From Apostichopus japonicus (taxonomy: Eukaryota; Echinodermata; Holothuroidea; Aspidochirotida; Stichopodidae): a stretch of DNA of 64,000 nucleotides. Below the pieces are notes generated by a model, which saw only the letters and a list, made by a program, of their open reading frames with translations, did not search any database and had not been told where the DNA came from. Below are positions 338 through 63,673 of the stretch, piece by piece. Each line of letters begins with the position of its first letter. Positions within the stretch are counted from its first letter, which is position 1. The position numbers were made by a program, and so were the translations under genes. The DNA lies in assembly GCF_037975245.1 (NCBI RefSeq), contig NC_092571.1:17169917-17233916 (forward strand), given 5' to 3'.

Positions 338-3300
338 CTCAATCTTTCTCATCACTAATAAACCATCTATGACTTTACCAAACACGACATGTTTCCCATC
401 CAAGAAATCGCACTTTGCACAAGTAATGAAAAACTGACAGCCATTAGTGTCTTTGCCGGCATTGGCCTGGAAAGATCAGAAAGAAAATTTAATTGTCAAA
501 GTTTGGGGATCAGCAACTCTGTGTTTAAGCAGATGGTTGGGCTCACCTCCAGCTTAAAGCGTCTGAAGACTCATGCAAAAAGAAACGTCTAATGGCGGTA
601 ATCTGACCTAGTTTCGAATGAGGTGTAACAGAAGTGTTAGACACCACCATCGATCCCAGAAAATACACACACACGGCTTCATGCTACCGTCGGTAAATAG
701 ACACTAGTGTACAGTCAGTACATACAGCTACAGTCAATACCCACAGCACAGTGTACACACAATACAGCGATGGACATCTCAGGTCCAGCTAAAGATAACA
801 AGGTATCACGTTTCATTACTGTACTTTCTGCATTTTGTAGCGACACGAACAAAACGTCACTTGCAAGCAATGGAAAGTTAACTTTTGTCAGATGGCCGCA
901 CAGGGTTTGGGGCGAGTCTTCAATGCCTTTAAGAAGCCTTGTCGCAACTAGTGGTGACAACAGTCTCATAAAGGTTACAGATTACTTATATTTATGTACA
1001 GTAATCATCTTACTAGCTTTACTACACTCATAGCTGTATCACAGAGAGAGAGATAGAGTAACCAAATTTCAGCACCATTTTATAACAATCACAAAGTGTT
1101 TATATGTCTTTTTCAGTGCCATCAATATTATGCCATAAACTTTGGAACAAGGGAATAAACATCTCTTAAGATTTTAAACACTCACCATTGATAGTAATCC
1201 AGGCCCATCATGCTTCAGTCGGAACGATTCATCAGCAAATTTGTCTCCATAGATACTGGCCATTCCGGTACCGTCACCCTGCAAGGAATGATGTAGCGCA
1301 GTTATAATACTGTGCAACCACCGTATGAAACCCTACACATCATTATGAAGAGTCGATTTGAAAGAATGTATTACTGGTATTTGTTCCAAATTTTTGACAG
1401 GCTTTAATATTATATAGAATTTTACAATTTTGTTTCCTACTATTTGTTCTCTAACATTCACACTTGCAAGTTGTATCCTTACACTCAGGAACTTACTACA
1501 GAAAGAAGTGTATTTAGATGTCTATACAGCTTTTCAAGAAGAGAAAGGAAGACTAGGGAGGCGGGAAAGTAACATGTTTTGTGTTGATTTAGCATCGTTC
1601 GGACAAGAGTCTGTGTCAAATAATGATCAACGTGTCAAAATGTACACTTTAAAAAATTAAAATGCAGAAAATATAGTTGTTTAAGGCAATTAACCTCTCG
1701 ACTTGATCGAATTGATCATACATTTAATGCTATCAAGTAAAGTTTTGATGTTTGTACCAATTCCTTTGTATTTTGCACAAAAAGTATTCATGTTGAGCTC
1801 TCATCTGTTGTTATCACACCTTGGGAAAACCTCTTGTTGTAGTGTAGGTAATCAATTTAACTAAACAAGAAATCCATGGATGAAATCTGCTGAACATCTA
1901 ATCACATCAAAGATTCTATGATTATTAAACAGAGCTCTGCAAAATAAATTCCATTTAATCCATCTTTCACTTCCCTCCCCCCAACCCCCCCCCCCCCAAT
2001 TGCCCCCAAATATCCTACCTTAGATTGAGTTCAATAATCATGTCAGCAGAGAGTCATAAAAATATTTTAAAAGAAATAAAGAGATGTGGGTGCATTTCCG
2101 GAACGTATATATCTCGACTTATAAATAGTATATTATAGCCTTGAACAAATTGAACATATACAAAAGAAGGATAAACAGAAGATCTAATAATATTTCTGAA
2201 AAAAGAATGCAAATTAAGTAATGAATATTCAGACACTATGATTAAACTAAAAGGAAATAAAATAATACTTAATAATAGAGACATAGTGAGCATTGTGGGG
2301 CAAAATGTTTTCCTTTTTCTTAGAGGTAACAATTACCTTGAGAAAGTCTCCACCCTGGACCATAAAATCCTTGATCACCCTGTGAAAGGTACAGCCTTTG
2401 AACCCTTGAGGTACACCATCCTTCCTGTAAAAACAAATATGCCAAAAAAGGGTAAAGATGTAGTATTTTAATGTTATATGTGCAGCACCTAAATGTAATC
2501 ATATTAAAACTTTGGAGGAAAACTTTTCTGGACAGTAATATACCCCTTTATATTAATCCTGAAATTACAGTAAACACAAATTCCCAGGTTGGCATTGATA
2601 AAAAGTTTTAAATTTCCAAAATAGAAGATTATGTGACCATTTCATCATTTTCAGTATATTTTTGGGCTGAAGAATTTCACTTCAAAAGAAGCAGAACTAA
2701 ATTTACATGATAGGTTAACAATGAATGACTTACAAATGGGATATGAAATGTCTACAATTGTTGTAAAGAGTTTCATCTGTGTTCATCAAACGTCCACATT
2801 ATTGAGCCACTTATTGGGTATAAGCATACCTTGAGCCAAGTCAGCGTACATACCACATAAAAACAAAGCACTTTCATTTCTCTAAATAATTTAAGTAGAA
2901 CATTGTGCAGGAATCTGAACTTGACTTTTGGTTGCCCTTTTGAAATCATGTTGAATTTCCAAGTAATCATAAAGTACAGAAGAAAAAACCTTTCCAGCTT
3001 ACATGAATTCACCAGTACAGAACTGCCTGAAATTTTCAGCTGTTTTAGGAACAATGTGGGCAAACAGTTCCATTTTCATTCTGCCAACCTCCTAGAAGAT
3101 AAAAACAATATTATTTAATCATGAGGTTGAACAAGTTTAAATCATGATAGTTTTCAAAATATTACACTACATTTTAATATACTGGCGGAGTGTATAGCCT
3201 AGTGGTTAACGCCGGAGTCTCCCAGTCATGAGATCCCCGGTTCGATTCCCCGCCGACAGCAAGGTGTGTCGTCTGGCAAAGGGTGTTGTTCAATAACAAC

Positions 3301-4629: not shown

Positions 4630-6270
4630 CTAGTAGGCCTTTATAGTACTATCATTCTTAGTCCAATAGCGTACTGTAGGCCTAAAACTTAGTTAGACCC
4701 AAGGCTTCCTAGTATAGTTGGTGGCCTTAGGTTAATTCAGATCCCATTTTGTTCACCCTTCTATGAACATGCAAGATATTTTAATAATAATAATAATTTT
4801 GTGGCTAGTTAAGTATCATTACCAGTTACTGCAGTACTAGTAGGCCTACTGTTACTACTTAGGCATAGTAGTAATTGTGCGAGGCTACTTACTGAATAAT
4901 GCTAGACCTAATTTGGGCCTAGGCCTAGGTACTTACTGTAGGTCCAAATTGCACTGTAGGCCTAGCCTAAGTTACGCTTATGCTTGGCCTACGTACAGTA
5001 CGAGAACCTACTGACACAGTGACAGAGGAACAGACACGATTTTCTTTATTACTCTAGGCCTATAAATGTTTTGATGAATTAATAAGTTAGTATCTACTAA
5101 ATACAAGTCAATTGTATTAACCTTATAGTTGGCTGGAAGATTATCGACTAAATATTAGTTGTGAACTGATGACTCCTCAGATCAAACGCATGGAGAATAA
5201 TATTCAAAGTTCATATGCCCTCGCGCATCTCATTTACTTCCGGGACATCATAATATAACATTTCATATCGTTACTTTTAATTGGCTAACATACGCAGAAC
5301 TGAGGAAATTTACCAATCAGATGAACTCTAAGAAGGAAGATCATTCGCTCGGTTGCAGACGAAATGTTTTCATTGACTACAAATTACAAAATCCTAACAC
5401 CACAGAAATAACCTTGAATCGAAATGCAAGGAAGTCTAATTTGGGGATTTTCAGATCTTGTGAATTGTTAATGAAAGGTAGTTCTTTCCTCTTTTAATAA
5501 GGTATTTGTTAAGGATAATTAAAGCTGATGTAAGACATCGTAATTTTTCTTCTCGTTTGATCGTTAGCCTAACGTAAGGATAAAGTACGTTTCATACAGC
5601 ACGAAGGTGTATCCTCCTCCTCGATACAATTAATTTAATTGTCGCTCATTGCTCAACTCAATGGGCCAATTAAATGAAAAAACCTCGCATAAGCTGCATT
5701 TCCTCACGTTGATCAAGTGTGGTGTTGTGATAAATGCTAGGCCTACTGTACAGTAGCCTAGCCCTTAGCTATAGGGTTCACAGTGCAGCCAAAAGTGGGC
5801 TTTTATTATTAACCCCAGGAAGCTAACTGTAACAACTTACTAGCTAATATACTAATACATTAGTAATAATGGTGAGGTGAAACTTTCCAACTACCCAATT
5901 AATACAAGGGCCCGAACCAGAGCTACCATTCTACTTGTGACAAATCAAAGCAACATTTAAATTTTAATTCTTTGGAAGTACAGGGTAGACCTAGCCTAGT
6001 AACAGTAACACTAACAGGAGGCCTATAATAAATGATCGATAGGACTCTGAGAGCCTTTCTTTAGTGTTTACGTAATCAGTGACAAAAATGAAGGGTGTGT
6101 GCTGTTGCTATTAACTGACAGCTGCTTAAATATGCATTATTATACTTGTACTTGGTAACCTGATCATGTTTTGTTAAATAAGGATAGCACTCTTGCTTAT
6201 GTTTTTAAGTTAACCAATCATCAGGTAAATAAGCATCAAGCAATACTAGTACTAGGTTAGGCCTACTAGT
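4630..6270. repeat. TAGGCCTA-rich region
   Basis: By eye there are nine AGGCCT palindromic hexamers here (near 4635, 4679, 4851, 4920, 4960, 5056, 5740, 6018 and 6259), mostly within TAGGCCTA. Only about six occur in the rest of the window. They are often joined to ACTGTA or ACTAGT motifs. There is no coding content apart from the non-coding exon proposed for ARMC9. Confidence 0.6.
5160..5480. promoter_or_regulatory. Probable bidirectional promoter of PPIH and ARMC9
   Basis: It lies between the divergent genes. It contains an ETS site ACTTCCGG at 5236-5243, an inverted CCAAT box (ATTGGC, 5280-5285) and a direct CCAAT box (ACCAATCAG, 5312-5320), a combination common at housekeeping divergent promoters. 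A donor-like AAAG/GTAGTT at 5477/5478 could end a non-coding first exon of ARMC9, spliced to the acceptor at 7020. The exact transcription starts cannot be seen. Confidence 0.5.
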
Positions 6271-22000: not shown

Positions 22001-25000
22001 AAGTTGAAGATTATCTTAACTTAAGATTGGTAAGATTCATTATTTTAAAAGATAATGGTGTACTACATAGCTTCTTTAAAGTGTCTATCCAATTAGACCT
22101 GTTGCTGTGAAATTTATACGTTTCCCAACCCCTTTTGTAAATGACAATCTCCTGGAATATAGTTTACCCAATATCGCATCGCAAAGTGCCATACAAAATG
22201 GTCACATTGCTATACAAGTCCAAACTTTGTAGCAGTTTCTAACACATAAACCATAGTATTTAATATAAGGAACAAAATTCAGAGCCGTCACAAATTGCTA
22301 GTCAAAATTTGAACACTAACTTATTCCCTGAATCTACAACAGGTTTTCATTTTCATTTCCACTTTAGATCGTAGTTTGTTGCTTTCTCTTCAGTAAATAT
22401 TCTCAGATTATCACCGGCATAGGAATAAGCTTCCATTTTGTCGATAACTAGATATTTTCCTTTAGTATCATTTCTATTTCTAAATTTTTGTATTTTAACT
22501 TTTTTCTAAATTTTACAATTTTTTTTTTCATCTTCAATTATCACACATCATCAAAATTTGTGCAGTTTTTAACACACCTGTCGGCGAGTGGAGTATCCCG
22601 TCAGGTAGAAATTTGTCTGTTGCATGTAGCAGATGTATCCACTTATATCGAACCTCTCAGTAACCACCTATATTACCTACTAGCCCTCCCTATAGAACAG
22701 TTTCTAGTATTTTGTTTTCCCTTAATCGCATGAAGGTATCGTCTCATTTCTATATAAATGTGTCTATCTTCCATTGTTTCTGTCTGTGAAGACACAAGAG
22801 AAATATAAAAAAATTATAGTTTTTTTAATTTGTTTATATACTCTTCTTGAATGAATATGCATGAATTGAATATATCTCTCTCTCTAGTCGACAGAAGTCG
22901 GAATCATGTGAGATTTGCCCATTTATTTCTGTCCCTCATCAAGTTAGGAAGATCAGTTTGAAGCACCCCGATGTCCCTAGCAACTACATCTATATAGCTG
23001 AGCTTATGTTTTCCCCTATTTCTCCTTCCATGTTTTGGTGTCCACATGATAAGTTGAGAGACTGGTTCCTTGGTGTTCCTGTATGAGTGCCCTGCTAGTT
23101 TGAGACGGCATTGTTGTATCTTACAGGATAGTTTTGGTTCGTTGCCATACAGTTCAGTATTTGTCATATGTTGACTCCAATGTACATTTAAACATTTCCG
23201 TAAAAGTCTTGTGTAGCACCCATCTAGTTTTGCTTCCAATTCCTTCGTAACTGTCCATGTATCGGAGCCATACATGATGACAGACTGTACAGTTGATTTA
23301 AAAATGTCTAGTTTGGTCTTTCTGTTGAGGCCAGATTTCCACACAGTGTCCATTTTATTACAAGCAGACCATGCCATGCCAATTCTTTTGTTGATTTCAC
23401 TTTTACTGTCTCTCACAAGGGAACCAAGGTACTTGTAGTTGTCGACTTCATTTAGTTTTGCACCACTACTTATTTTGATGTCGATTTTGTCCTGGGTTTT
23501 GATGTTGACTGTGAGATATTCAGTTTTTGACTCATTAAGTCTAAGGCCCACACTTCTAGCATGCTTTTCAACCTTTTGCAGTAGCTCTTGACCGTTGTGC
23601 TGATCATCGCTACATAGGACAATATCATCCGCAAAATCTAGATCACATAGGACTTCTTTTGGATATCTTGAGCTTCTTCTTTGGTTGAGTGTGAAGCCTA
23701 GTTGCTCTGCATTTATGGTTGATTTCCTCGTTATGTAGTCAAGTACGATAATGAATAAAAACGGGGCCAGAGTAAAATAATATTGAATATATGATTGCTG
23801 AGAATTAAAAAAAAAACCAAGAACAGATGATTTTAGGAGGATGTGGTAGGTGGATTCTTTTTATCGAATTGTTTTGTCATAAAGGATATGATACAAGTTA
23901 ATGGAATTATAATCAATAAGAATTTAATTAAGAAAGTCTTATACCTTGATATTCCCTTCTTACCATGCTAGCACCACCCTCCCCCCCTTCCCCCTCTTAG
24001 TATTTCTCCCCTCCTCATCCTCTTGCCATTTTCCTGTACTTTTGAGAGTTCTTGAGTTTTTTTTCAGAAAAAACTCTGGATTGCACACCCTTTTTATATT
24101 TCAGATAACTGTGTGACTCCGTGGAAGCATGTAGCCTGATGTGTTCTTCAATAATTTATGAATAGTGTATACCTTTTTTGTGTGTGTTCCAATGTGTAAA
24201 TAATTACATTTATTTACCAAAAAAATATATATATATATATGTCAGGGGGGGTTGGGGAAAGGGTGCTTGCAATCTTCTGCCAGTAGAGATAATTTGGTTA
24301 ACAATATTCAGTAAAAATATTGATTAATACGCTGCGTAGGAATCCACAGCACTGCTGTCTGCACAAGTGAGGGAGGAATGGAAGGTGGGAGGGAGGGGGA
24401 ATTACTGAATTACATCACCGGGCAAACCGGGTCTTACATCTCGGTCGCCCCCGAACAGCGAATTTGGTTTGGAATGATCAATATGAACAGAGTAGGAGTG
24501 ATGTGTAGGTTTGGTGATTAGAACACCAGCCTTGGGTCAGTTGGATCATCTGTAGGTCTAAGACTAGTTTGGTCTATAAGGACCATCTCCAAAGTGATGG
24601 GGCTATTCAAGTACAAAGTAATTTGAATTTGACGCAAACCACTAGTCGTCCGCCTAGATGACCACCAAAGCTGACTTTTTTTGCGCTGTCAGTTCTCACT
24701 GAAATTTGGTCACCTGGGACGACCAGACCACTGTCGACAATTTGCCCTGACATAATTCCCGGGGCATGCCATCAGGTACAGCCGTTACAGTACGAATACA
24801 ATCACAAACAGTGACTTGCTAGATTGTAAGAAAAACTCTTCAATGTCTCTACAAGAATATCAACATTTCTGGTGCAGATATCTCTGACCAGAGGGTAACA
24901 TGTAATTGAGTGGCTTACCTCAAGAGGATCCCTCATTTGCATACCTCAGTTAGATACCTCAGGAACAGAAGGAATGGTTATCTAGGAGTGTTCCTATAAC

Positions 25001-49208: not shown

Positions 49209-49290
49209 CAAGGAGCTGTATGGTTAGAGCAGGGAGCTGCTACTCTTACGTTAGAATAGCAGCTCCCTGGTTAGAGTAAGTAGCTCCTTG
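49209..49290. mobile_element. Nested palindromic mini-insertion (40 bp) with 7-bp direct repeats
   Basis: An inner palindrome at 49230-49269 starts CAGGGAGCTGCTA and ends TAGCAGCTCCCTG. Perfect GTTAGAG repeats at 49223-49229 and 49270-49276 flank it like a target-site duplication. Taking out the palindrome and one repeat leaves a second palindrome with CAAGGAGCT/AGCTCCTTG ends (49209-49290). There is no coding capacity. Confidence 0.7.
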
Positions 49291-51121: not shown

Positions 51122-51640
51122 TTCATACGTGTAGCAGTATAGGCTACTACGTGATGTCCTTCCGTATAATGAAAAGAGAGAGACTAAGAGGAAAGAAGCT
51201 CTTTAAGGTATCATACGTCATCTGTAGGATAAATGATATACGTTAGTGCGGTTGTAAACAAAGAGAAGATACGTCAATGATACTTGAAACAGTCGGAAAA
51301 ATCTAAATTAGGATTCTCTTTCTCTTTTGAAATGTACTCTGTCGAACTTCTTTGAAGTAGTGATGAATTGTATAGCTTCCTGCTTATCTCTCAAAGTTAC
51401 CGTTCTGTTTTTATTAGCAACAGTTCTTTCTACTTATTGGATTTTACAAACACACACGCCGAGAAAGAATTGATAAAGGATTCAGTTCAAATCTTGAAAC
51501 TAAACTGTGAGGTTTTTATATTTCGCATTTCTGATTCCACAGTTTCATAAAAATCATATTATGCTTTAGGACCTGTGAAAATACGACCGACTTATCATTC
51601 TCAGTTTTGTTCCTTTATACTATCATAACTTGTTTTGAAA

Positions 51641-54600
51641 ATGAGGTGGAACCTACTTTCATTTCTGATTTGGGAATATTTGTTATTCTCTTGTGTGATG
51701 CCCACTATATCATTCAAAGTCTCATCAGAGTGGAGAAGAAATTCTCCATCTGGTTCGGAGGAGAGCATCTCAGAATCCGAGCGTTCGAAGACTTTTCCTT
51801 TCTACTCCTCTTTCTCTTTGCTTCGAGGTGATGTTGTTCTTTATTGGAATCTGAACTATGACGAAACAATCTCTTTTAAAATTCGGGCAGAAATTACCGG
51901 AAATATGAAATCAGAAGGATTTCTTGGGTTTGGGTTCTCTCCTCGTGGTAAAGAAGATCGAGATGTTGTCATGGTAACATGGACAGAAGATAGACCAATC
52001 GAAATTGCTGTACGTATATTGTTCAAATATTCATGCATCTTTAATACGATTTTTCTTGTTTTCTGCAATATGATGGAATGGAGGTTAACTTACATGAAAG
52101 GTCATCAAAATTGTCTCCCAAGAAAAATATAAAATCTGCTAAACTGTAATCAAAATTACTTTCAAGCAGGTTCTGATATTTCAGCAATATTTCTCAGACA
52201 TTGTGGAGTATTAAAATTCAGATAGGCCTAATATGATACGTTCCAGTATAATGTTAATTGTATGCTGCCAGTTATAAGGGATAATCATTTACATGGTTAC
52301 AGTCTCAATATAACTGGACAGTACATAGATTCAGTTGAATGATTTCGTGCCCATGCTCTCTCTATAGTGTTGGCGAAAAAAGTGTAACAGTATATATTTG
52401 TTTAAACCATAATATGTCCAACCGAATCTCACCAGAAACATTTTGGTTTAGCTAATTCGTAAAAGCTGATTGGTAGTTAACATAATCCTTCTAAAAGTAA
52501 TGACATCCTATCCAGGGGGGGGGGGGGGGAAAGAAATTTCCCAGTTTGACGTGTTGAGATACTATACCAGTTGTCACATTGTTCTCTCCAAAGGATGCAT
52601 TTACTAATGAGGAAGGAATTCTTCTGCCAGATGAACGATGTGACTACCACATGGAGAGCTCAAATATTCTATACGAAGATGGCGACGTTTTCTTGGAAAT
52701 AGATATAACACGATATTTCAACACGAAAGATCCAGAAGATTATCAAATTGAAGCAAGTATAATTTTTTTTGGACTGACAGTGCATGTACCCTTAGTTACA
52801 TGACAAATCTAAGAGACTTCTTGTTGTTTCCCAGTCGTTAAACGTTGTTGCTATTTTGTTAGTTCTCGTTGTTCATTGTTTATTCTTAAAGAGTTACATT
52901 GGTTTTTCGGTCTCTCACCGAATAATTTACAAGCTCCTGTTAATTACCTACAAATCGTCGAATGGTTTGGCTTCCTCTTTAATCTTTGACATGCTCCTGA
53001 CATACACTACAACACGACGTCTTCGCTTCAGTAACATGATTTACTCCAAGAACATCGGCCTAAATATACATGGGGTGACAGATCGTTCGAAGTAGCTACT
53101 CCTCGCCTCTGCATGGAATGGATATACCACTATGGAACTTAGATGTTGTGCTTCCCTCACTTCGTTAAAAAAAAATCTGGAAACTCATCTTATGCGTCAA
53201 GCATTCATCAATGTTAACCAATAATTATTTTGTTCATTCCTTTTTGCTTTCTTTTTTCTCTTTCTCTCCCACGCAGCCTTGAGCACCCTTCCGGGTGGAT
53301 ATGCGCGCATTATAAATCACCGTTATTATTATTATGATAATATTGTCGTTTTTCAGTTCGTAGGCCCATTGTTGATGTTGTCAACCTTTCACTTGTTGAT
53401 GCTGTCAACTTTCCAGTTCCCATTGTTGATGTTTCTTTCTGTTGATGTTGTTTTCTTTGTTGCTTTTAATTGTTGCTGTTGTTGATCGAGACTAATCTTA
53501 ATTTCCTCGCAGTGGGGAACAACTTGGACATTTTTCATGCTAGATCATGAAATGCCAGAGTTTTACAGAAAACTGAACCTCGAGACCATGGACGTCGTTG
53601 AAAGACCTTTGTCATTGTTGAAAAGTAACCAGTACCAGTATGAACCCAACCTACCCCCAGACACAAAACTGAGGGAGTTTACTGTAAACAAAGTAAGTAC
53701 TCGATACGACAGTGTGCGCATATAGGGGTGGACAAATGTATGTCGGGCGGGGGGGGGGGGCCAGACCGGGCCGAGTATAAGGGTGGAAGTTAGCGGTAGC
53801 TGGGTTATATATTACATATATCAGCGGATTAATGGAACTACTAAATCGATATTTCGCTAGAGCATTGTGTTTCGTGCACGCATAGAACATAGGGAGAGAA
53901 GCCAATGTCAAACTAAGAGGTTTGGACTAACGTGTTGACGGAGACAATCGTACAGAGGTATGTGTGTGTGTGTGGAAGCGGAGGGGGGTGGGGAAGAAAT
54001 GAATGTATATATATAGGCTATGATGTAACATAAGTATGATGCCTGCCTTGTCCGGACTCTGTTACAAAAGCAACGTTAATTTAAACAGGACCTCGAGTTT
54101 TAAACTCGTACATGCTTAGAGTTCGTTCCTTCTTTGATCAAACTTTCATTTCAAATGATCAATAAAAAAAAAACTTCAAGCTGTGTCTCTGCCAACATGT
54201 ATAATGATTAAGGAAAACTGTATATTCTACTGTCAATATTGTAACAACTTTAAAGAATGAACATTCGTCATAGGATTAGTCTAAAGAAAATGATACAAAC
54301 ATTTAATAATTTTTTTTTATTAGGTTAAGCTACTGCCAAAATCAGTACGTTGTTACGCCAAGTCTGAATGAAGCTCTGGTTTTTATACCAATTTTCTGCA
54401 AAGTCATGTATTCCGTTATTTTCTTCTTTTTCTAAGTTTCAAATTCCTGTCGACGATACTACGTACTGGTGCCAAACATTTCGGTTCGATCTGCAGGAGA
54501 AAGTCCACGGTATTAAGGTATTTATCATCTATTATGCGTCTTTAATATGTTATCCTTTTTTTTATATTTTTTATATTTTTTTATTTTTTAATATGTTATC

Positions 54601-57600
54601 CTTCATGAACCTTCTACATATTGCGTAAGTTCCTTTATTATTCTATCGTTCTTAAGAATAAGCGTCATCATCATTCTCACTTCTGATTGGTTGTCATTTT
54701 GTATGACGTCAGCTACGATACAGGTAAGCTTATCGCTCATAGCGTATCGACAGAGTGATATTCATTTCCCTATAATGCGACATAGCATATGATTTCTGTT
54801 TTGTTGTACAAAACCAATTGAATCCATGCACACAAACCAAAATAAACATGGAGTTTCATAAACCCAGGTATATTTACTATTAGTGATATCGATAGAATAC
54901 TGTGCCATATGCCAAATGTGTTTTCCTTACATCCCAATAGTTGTAAATCCCCTCTGTTGCTCTGACGCCACAGGTGATCATTCACAGGAGAGGGGTGGGG
55001 AGGGGAGGGGTGGAGAGGGGTGGGAGGGTGGGGAGGAAGCCAAACAGATGCAAGCCTAGATTAGGAGCTTCGTTAGACTGTATACTATATGCACTCTGTG
55101 ACACGAGCAATGAGACTAAACTATGAAACTCATTTCCGTCTTTTTATGCAATTGTTTCAAATTGTACATTTTAAATGATTTTATTCCGTATTTTTTATAT
55201 GATTTTAAGAAGGAAAAAATGTAACAAACGCCAATGTGCAAATCTGCTTAGTCAATATACCCCTTTCTGTGTTAAATTGAATCATGAAAGAAACATGCAA
55301 GGCAGAAAGAGGTACACCTCTCATGGCACCCGACTGATTCTCGTTGTGGTCAGGATAACAATGGTGGATGCAGGGAGTTGTTATTTCCATAACAACTCCC
55401 TGGTGGATGTTGGTAAACGTTGATCCACGATAGTTATGGTGTTGTATATAACTTCGTCACACATGTTATGAATACTATCGTGGATCAACGTTACCAATAT
55501 CCACCATAGTTATCGTGACCACAACGAGAACCGGGTGCTCAAGACAAAATGTTGAGCCAAATGAATTATGACGTCATCGTCATCAAATCCCGAATTCTGT
55601 TTATACACGTATAGTTGCACTAGAAATGGAGAGCAATATAGTGTTTATATCAAGTAACATATCTGTCTCTTTCCAGTACGAATCTCTTATTACTCCTGGT
55701 AATGAGATGATTGTGCATCATATGGAGTTATATCATTGTGAGGTTCCTCCAGATAACAAAATTCCCGATTACAGTGGACCCTGTCCGGAAAAGCCAAAAC
55801 AACTTAATGTTTGCTCTAAGGTGATCGCTGCTTGGGCTATGGGAGCAGAGGTATAACACACTTATTTCTTTCTCGTTATATGTACACAGGTAAAAGTAAA
55901 TACCATTGACTGATCCAGCTTTGTATTTTTAAGAGGGGCGAGGCGGAGGGGAGCGAGGCAAGTTTCGGTCAATATGGAAATTACTACCGAAATAGCAGTG
56001 CATACGGATACTTATAGATAACATATTAGTAATGCGCGAAGCGTGCTCAAAATGTGTTCACTGTATACCATTATGATCTGCATCATGTATGTGTTGATAA
56101 TATTTAGTCCGAACCCTCCCCCCCTCCCCTCCACCTCCCCAGAATTCCATCATTTCTGTTATGGTCGGAGCCTTCACCCTACTCACCAGATATTTTCACG
56201 TTTAACTCTGAAAACCATGAGACAGATTCTCATCATATCTATATTTGTCAAGATTCCCCCCCCCCCCCTCTCATTTCTTGCCCAACTGAATATTATTATG
56301 ACGACATAATAGTCCTTTTAATTTCCGAGGTTGCGAAGTGTTTATGAAAATAAAGTGACTGTATGCTAAATTTGAACACTTTAACACCTTTTATACACTT
56401 TTATGTCTGACTAACTATAGATTGGTTAAAAAGGTCTTAAGAAACCGGTTACTAACATGAGCGGTTATATACTTATATTGTTTATCGAATCTATAAAATT
56501 ACAAAAAGGTTGCACTCAAGTATATATGGAACCTCTTGCCTTTCAATCTTTCTACCTTTATTTTAAAGCCTCTGGTCTATCCCATTGAAGCCGGTGTACC
56601 GTTGGGTGGTTCTGCCTGGTCAAAACATCTTATGATTGAGGTGCATTATAACAACCCACATAAACTGTCAGGTAAGTTGTTAACATGTACACTATCGAGA
56701 AAGGTTCTGAGGCGGTGGTGGGGAAGGGGGGGGGGGTGGAGTAAAATCACCGAAGAAATATGGAGAGGAAAGGGTCGTTGGAGGTTGAGCCATCGCATCG
56801 GTTGAATTCATGGCGATGACACCGTCAGCTACAGACGAAAAAAATTAATGACTATAATGTCGTGTCGTAAAGTTGTATATTTCTGCTCATGTGTTGTCCC
56901 TATTTTCTTCTTCGCTTTACAGTTTATTTCTTACAGCAATACTTTGTTCATTTTCATTATCGTATAGCTAATAAAAAATAGTCAACTTTATGCATGAAAT
57001 GATTGAAAGAATGATTACCGTACAGAAAAAGAAAAAAATCAGCGCCAGGGGGTATAGATTTTAATACAATAACTGTAACCTTTGAATCGACATTTTCTTT
57101 CAATTCTGGTTACACACATCTATTGGGTTGTCCAGGTTTCACACCGGTAATTTTTCTATTCAGGTCTCATCGATAATTCCGGTATTCGGTATTACTATAC
57201 TAAGACCCTTAGACGGTTTGATATCGGGGTGTTGGAAGTCGGTGTGACGTACTCTCCAAACCTTGTCATCCCTCCACAAGAAGAAGACTTCGAATGGAAT
57301 GGTCTCTGCCTTCCTTCGTGCACAAGTGTAAGTATAACATTTCCCTTATGATGATGCGCATAGTTACATAGCCTAACGTTCTATCCGGATGTGGGAGAGG
57401 GTGGAAAGGGGGGGGGGGAGAGAAGCGGGAAGACCGAGGTGGTGGAGCGGTCACGTACCGTCTGTCATCATTAACCCCTCCCATTAAATAAAAAAGTGCT
57501 CGCTCAGCCAACTAGATTAGATGAGATTAGATAAGTTTAGATAATATTAGTTTGATGGACGGACACGGTACGGACAGATGGACGGATGGATGGATCCATC

Positions 57601-63312: not shown

Positions 63313-63673
63313 ACACTTATGGCGGGCCATCAGTCCCTAATCGTAGGGAAACAACATATACCAATTTCCTTGGACTTATACCAGTTTCTAGCAGCTTTAA
63401 TTGACTTCTACCGATTTAAATTGACATAATCATCGATTTAAGCTGCTATGATGTCGATTTAAATTGACTTACACCAGTTTAATTCGACATATCATCGATT
63501 TAAATCGACATATGCCAATTTCAATCGATGATAAGTAAAATAAATCGGTATGTCTCAATTTAAATCGACATCTAGACACTGGTATATAAGTCGAAGAAAA
63601 TTGGTATATATGTCGATTTAAATCGGTCTATGTCGATTCCCCACGATTTGAGACTGATGGCCCGCCAAAGTGT
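63313..63673. mobile_element. MITE with ~35-bp inverted ends and ATTTAAATCGA subrepeats
   Basis: The left end ACACTTATGGCGGGCCATCA and the inverted right end ACACTTTGGCGGGCCATCA continue into AATCGT and GGGAA on both sides. The interior is many copies of GATTTAAATCGACATA-like palindromic units in both orientations. No coding capacity and no clear target duplication (possibly TA). Confidence 0.7.

Follow-up and report, generated by a model that had tools for sequence, protein, structure and literature searches.

The closest described systems to the hairpins studied here belong to the P superfamily of transposons. In Drosophila, the P element has 31-bp repeats, which its transposase cleaves 17 nt from the end (PMC7776569), and the repair joints of P{wa} consist of a target duplication, a first tail that does not exceed 17 nt, a stretch of microhomology or filler (AT), a second tail and the duplication again (PMC2895639, Table 1). 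The commonest joint with two tails, listed for 14 isolates, has a 30-bp hairpin with an 8-bp duplication on either side, and joints that have lost most of their tails are equally common in these data (PMC2895639). According to our own count of that table, 33 of the 44 isolates typed (from 66; the rows with long microhomology and two with short microhomology were left out) keep at least 12 nt of both tails, in hairpins of 25-44 bp. Galileo, likewise a P-superfamily element of Drosophila, has 7-bp duplications with the consensus GTANTAC and a palindromic target motif (PMC4168063). A P-type transposase system is also known from a non-fly animal, the zebrafish, where Pdre2 has 13-bp repeats and 8-bp duplications and excision by zfTHAP9 is accompanied by larger flanking deletions (PMC10983969).

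The hairpins presented here resemble the Drosophila P footprints in the order of their parts (duplication, tail, microhomology or filler, tail, duplication) and in their two-tail form, and differ from them in measure: 7-bp instead of 8-bp duplications, a 33-bp instead of a 31-bp repeat, and a tail maximum of 17-19 nt instead of 17. Moreover, the fly joints were induced in repair-deficient (spn-A) flies, whereas our hairpins are resident in the assembly. The 7-bp duplications and the palindromic motif are shared with Galileo; in contrast, Galileo carries very long foldback-like inverted repeats, and the sections of its description that we draw on mention no population of hairpin scars (PMC4168063). 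It is very probable that the hairpins are end-joined excision footprints of a P-superfamily transposon and not tiny transposons. No report of hairpin-shaped P scars throughout a genome was found in the literature, as judged by titles and abstract openings and with few subscription journals covered.

The window, the whole stretch of DNA that was analysed, has 64,000 nt and is part of a 671.6-Mb assembly; its two hairpins and their surroundings are listed in Table 1. The sequence-only reading of the window had described a perfect 32-bp palindrome with GTGGATG on both sides, lying in one arm of a foldback that keeps the empty site in its other arm. A hairpin of that length is indeed there, with perfect pairing confined to the stem on both sides of a loop, and so are both copies of the 7-mer. 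The foldback arms match at 55338-55369/55499-55530 (32 nt, 94% identity) and at 55416-55434/55474-55492 (19 nt, 100%), and with the hairpin and one 7-mer removed the left arm aligns across the site to the right arm, so the description of a filled and an empty arm holds. In this alignment the filled arm reads GTGGATG and the empty arm GTGGATA, with a one-base indel a few bases further. We read the hairpin at 55371-55402 as an excision footprint with an 18-nt tail (or 17 nt and one filler base) on the right and a 14-nt tail on the left.

Table 1. Features of the two hairpin sites in the window.
Feature	Position	Strand	Remarks
Hairpin	55371-55402	.	Reads CAGGGAGTTGTTATTTCCATAACAACTCCCTG; 32 bp, 14-bp perfect stem and 4-nt loop
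Target duplication GTGGATG, left copy	55364-55370	+	Sequence and window scan
Target duplication GTGGATG, right copy	55403-55409	+	Sequence and window scan
Foldback that took the insertion	55338-55530	.	Right arm 55474-55530, empty site ~55497-55506
Second hairpin, CT subtype	49230-49269	.	17-bp stem with one mismatch, 6-nt loop
Duplication GTTAGAG, left copy	49223-49229	+	Sequence and window scan
Duplication GTTAGAG, right copy	49270-49276	+	Sequence and window scan
Older related hairpin CAAGGAGCT...AGCTCCTTG	49209-49290	.	35 bp without the insert

Some features of the surroundings were noted in addition. The foldback, taken as 55320-55545, is itself a possible miniature element, with the ends CACCCG/CGGGTG and imperfect flanks CTCATGG/CTCAAGA (by eye) and a sub-hairpin within one arm; no second copy of it was found in the window with blastn-short at E<=0.1. 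By eye, the hairpin seems to lie in an intron of a copper-monooxygenase-like gene, and a DOMON-like segment at 51629-52132 gives a match below the curated cut-off.

At the second site the GTTAGAG duplication forms the centre of the older hairpin, positions 15-21 of 35 as counted by eye, and no duplication belonging to this older hairpin (49209-49290) was seen. The inserted and the older hairpin align with a score of 32, which was reached by none of 3000 random palindromes, and the hairpins at 55371 and 49230 with a score of 27, reached by 2 of 3000. A scan of the window for structures of 24-400 bp that are flanked by exact 7-bp repeats and contain an inverted repeat of at least 9 bp returned exactly these two insertions, and none in 20 dinucleotide shuffles; with the inverted repeat lowered to at least 7 bp the shuffles gave 0.15 structures on average and 2 at most. 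Other lengths of flanking repeat yielded one structure, a 6-bp case within the foldback itself. The claim made from the sequence, that the window has two insertions with matching ends and 7-bp duplications, is right, and the two are related. The accompanying suggestion of a preference for palindromic targets was not borne out as regards foldbacks: of only two sites one is unusual, the foldback score of the site-2 target being reached by 0.05% of random positions and that of the site-1 target by 20%. The target motif described below is itself a short palindrome, as it is in other P-superfamily elements.

The pattern CAGGGAG-N5..35-CTCCCTG occurs at 3057 places in the assembly, against 53 for a reversed control pattern. 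In total 45 distinct hairpins were read, namely the two of the window and those in loci L133-L179, which are the places listed first and lie, unlike the window's two, within the initial 8 Mb of contig 1; hairpins whose 20-bp flanks equal one already counted (e.g. L140-L143) were left out of the counts. Judged by appearance, at least 2 of the 45 seem not to be full members of the family, namely L145 and L153, one arm of which is short. In 24 of the 45 the two flanking 7-mers are identical, and in 35 they agree at 6/7 or better; random pairing of flanks gives 0.3% and 3.2%, respectively, and the 7-bp repeats of the host genome are far more frequent than by chance. In the first 35 hairpins read, the flanks have a mean identity of 0.82 at 7 bp compared to 0.21-0.30 at lengths of 4-6 and 8-11 bp. 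The preferred duplication is xTNNNAx, in many cases GTNNNAC, with T at position 2 in 60 of 68 cases (34 hairpins at 6/7 or better, both strands; L145, L153 and L167 were left out of this motif set and of the count of CT-type tails). Since each hairpin was read on both strands, A at position 6 is favoured likewise. GTTAGAG carries both core letters, T2 and A6, and GTGGATG fits at position 2 only.

As a control, 132 hairpins with the same ends were listed from viral and prokaryotic DNA (at least 120 viral and 12 prokaryotic stretches, obtained with looser patterns), and 129 of them lack a flanking repeat of at least 3 bp; the remaining ones have 3 bp in two cases and 7 bp in one. The strict hairpin pattern gave no match in the viral and prokaryotic collections. 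The phage match with the 7-bp repeat (L044) lies inside a phage reading frame and was set aside.

The length of the duplications bears on a relation to hAT-type elements with CAGGG termini and 8-bp duplications, to which we give next to no probability. CAGGG termini are common in the Buster families (PMC4298943), and an 8-bp duplication could be read at the two window sites taken alone. However, identity over the first 35 hairpins read falls to 0.25 at 8 bp, and the parent element encodes a P transposase, so that the duplications and the transposase both contradict this origin.

The hairpins are diverse. The 45 hairpins have 31 sequences, with lengths of 24-40 bp and differing joints, and the homology of copies over their whole length by which miniature inverted-repeat elements (MITEs) are defined was not found. 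The same 25-mers (7 of 45) and 28-mers (6 of 45) nevertheless recur beside different duplications, as would be expected if a unit of 25-40 bp transposed as a micro-MITE, with a P-type transposase acting on its termini. Such mobility could also have brought one hairpin into the middle of an older relative, as at 49209-49290, and agrees with hairpins being more numerous than the exact termini counted. However, the number of sequences stands against it, and in 20-22 of 31 TT hairpins one and the same pair of tails is joined exactly, at a point that varies. The 25-, 28- and 29-mers that recur correspond to joints at 1-2 nt of shared sequence, and recurrence is likewise found in the P-element repair data, in which one 30-bp joint is listed for 14 isolates (PMC2895639). 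In addition, P transposase binds internal 10-bp sites, which hardly fit into such hairpins (PMC7776569), and the pairing of two ends about 30 bp apart seems sterically doubtful. We therefore regard mobility of the hairpin itself as improbable, and the undescribed class of tiny hairpin transposon proposed from the sequence was not upheld: the TT tails are common to the copies, yet the point and the manner of their joining vary by site, as is expected of repair joints.

Several loci show more complex arrangements. L175 has the order duplication, tail, duplication, hairpin, duplication, which looks like templated copying during repair. Two different tandem hairpins with a common GTCTAAC duplication are found at 199-257 of L152. 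The six loci L138-L143 (contig 1, 1.239-1.311 Mb) have near-identical 40-bp hairpins within the same 12-bp flanks and represent a scar that has been multiplied as part of a larger repeat. L182, L183, L184 and L195 share the flank that follows a CAGGGAGTTGTTATGGAATAATCCCTG hairpin, which appears to be a further scar within a dispersed repeat.

The first reading had also pointed to a longer element sharing the CAGGGAG terminus, and three full-length parents were obtained, one of them with a P-type transposase. The 19-nt TT terminus is present at 180 exact places in the genome, hairpins included, and some of these continue as a longer repeat. Copies on C2 (L200), C12 (L201) and C3 are bounded by the 33-bp inverted repeat CAGGGAGTTGTTATGGAATGGAGTTSTGTCTTC with at most one mismatch, and perfect 7-bp duplications flank all three, namely GTTTAAC (L200), GGTAATG (L201) and GTCTGAC (C3 copy). 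The L200 and L201 elements are about 4.5 kb long and 96-97% alike; the C3 copy has 12,042 bp and is 76-87% alike to them in aligned blocks of more than 100 bp. The transposase of the C3 copy matches TNP-like_RNaseH_N (1.8e-29), Tnp_P_element (2.1e-5) and TNP-like_RNaseH_C (3.2e-8), all over the curated cut-offs, and the Drosophila P transposase structure 6p5a in PDB (1.4e-9). Both 4.5-kb copies are without the stretch that holds this transposase, and those of their ORFs that were scanned (6 of 7 in L200, 1 of 6 in L201) gave no Pfam match over the curated cut-off. Judged by the P-type transposase of the C3 copy, the 7-bp duplications and the GT...AC palindromic motif, the parent element appears to belong to the P superfamily. 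At other P-transposase loci (10 of 12 matches fetched and their DNA read, three of these loci covering 5-6 kb) the inverted CAGGGAG pair was absent from the DNA read.

The transposase ORF (L215:2776-4662, + strand; G000 C3:19626400-19632500) has 175 N-terminal residues that match RAG1_imp_bd (PF12560) with an E value of 3.9e-7 and 30.4 bits against a cut-off of 23.3, the score being only 18.3 bits with the whole ORF. This RAG1-N-terminal-like part recalls the N-RAG-TP element of Aplysia (PMC8355894) and lies where a THAP domain would be expected, for which the scanned ORFs of the C3 copy (exons unassembled) gave no match at E<=0.1. The P elements also have a second gene on the opposite strand (L216:2634-3731 and 5364-5780, both -), with a weak PHD-finger-like match below the cut-off, and related ORFs are kept in the 4.5-kb copies L200 and L201.

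Comparison to the 33-nt repeat gives a limit to the tails. Among 36 TT hairpins the longest exact match is most commonly 18 nt (18 of 36) and reaches 19 nt in five, and none keeps 20 nt or more of the 33. The search supplying most of the set admitted hairpins up to 49 bp; the set includes some later loci, among them L186, L190, L193 and L199, which came from a search requiring the 19th base. For at least 22 of these 36 hairpins the final 1-2 nt of the longer tail can equally be assigned to the other arm, and the cap is therefore known only within about two bases. In the 31 TT hairpins of the position-ordered list and the window (non-TT types were left out of both sets), 20 are exact joins of two tails with zero extra bases when tails of at most 17 nt are allowed, 21 with 18 nt, 22 with 19 nt and still 22 with 20 nt. 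Nine of the 31 need 3-12 extra or changed bases even at 19 nt, which fits filler or later mutation. The rule is drawn from the TT type: CT-type tails reach at least 20 nt in 9 of 11 CT hairpins, as matched with one mismatch allowed to a reference string that ended at 20, and the three parents are of the TT type, with none known for the CT subtype, to which the hairpin at 49230 belongs. A CT parent repeat would start like CAGGGAGCTGCTACTCTAAC and extend past the tails.

The cap also bears on whether the hairpins could be copies of an element with inverted terminal repeats that were deleted internally by abortive gap repair or replication slippage, with no staggered cut inside the repeat. Termini flanked by duplications would result in this way too, and the two 4.5-kb copies do lack the transposase stretch of the 12-kb copy. 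However, such deletion leaves the cap at 18-19 of 33 nt without a reason and gives none for why 20-nt tails add no exact joins, and we consider it highly unlikely.

The interpretation of the hairpins as excision footprints is based on the 7-bp duplications, the common termini, the parents with the 33-bp repeat, the P-type transposase of one parent, and the tail cap and the joints of the hairpins sampled. A P-superfamily transposon would have inserted at the 55371 site, duplicating GTGGATG, and would later have excised. The transposase would cut one strand at the boundary of the element and the opposite strand some 17-18 nt within the 33-bp repeat, and each broken end would keep one tail of the repeat, the two tails being inverted copies of each other. 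Rejoining of the tails, either directly or by way of 1-2 shared nucleotides or a short filler, would then leave a hairpin of roughly 25-40 bp flanked by the two target duplications. We infer the cleavage position and the end-joining pathway, as well as the insertion and subsequent excision at this particular site. Joints that lost most of a tail would escape the CAGGGAG-N5..35-CTCCCTG pattern.

The hairpins, at 3057 places, far exceed the 180 exact 19-nt TT termini, and the supply of parents is thus not accounted for, but the count took exact TT termini and not degraded or variant parents, and the excess may therefore be only apparent. Alternatively, the same transposase could mobilise or copy scars again, so that they would multiply as the smallest DNA transposons known and the large excess of hairpins over intact termini would be explained; we find this unlikely.

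Scars of P elements are already known from fly experiments. In the present case a genome apparently contains thousands of P-scar-shaped hairpins that derive from a P-type element not matched to a described one. The hairpins record an apparent cut about 17-18 nt inside the 33-bp repeat, and it therefore becomes testable whether the long stagger of Drosophila P is superfamily-wide. They also record the germ-line joining of two like 3' tails, and repeat finders could easily take such scars for miniature transposons.

Elsewhere in the window, a reverse transcriptase fragment was detected at 22904-23860 on the - strand (RVT_1, E 2.1e-9), and a cluster of a ATTTAAATCGACAT-like unit in inverted and tandem copies lies at 63389-63625.
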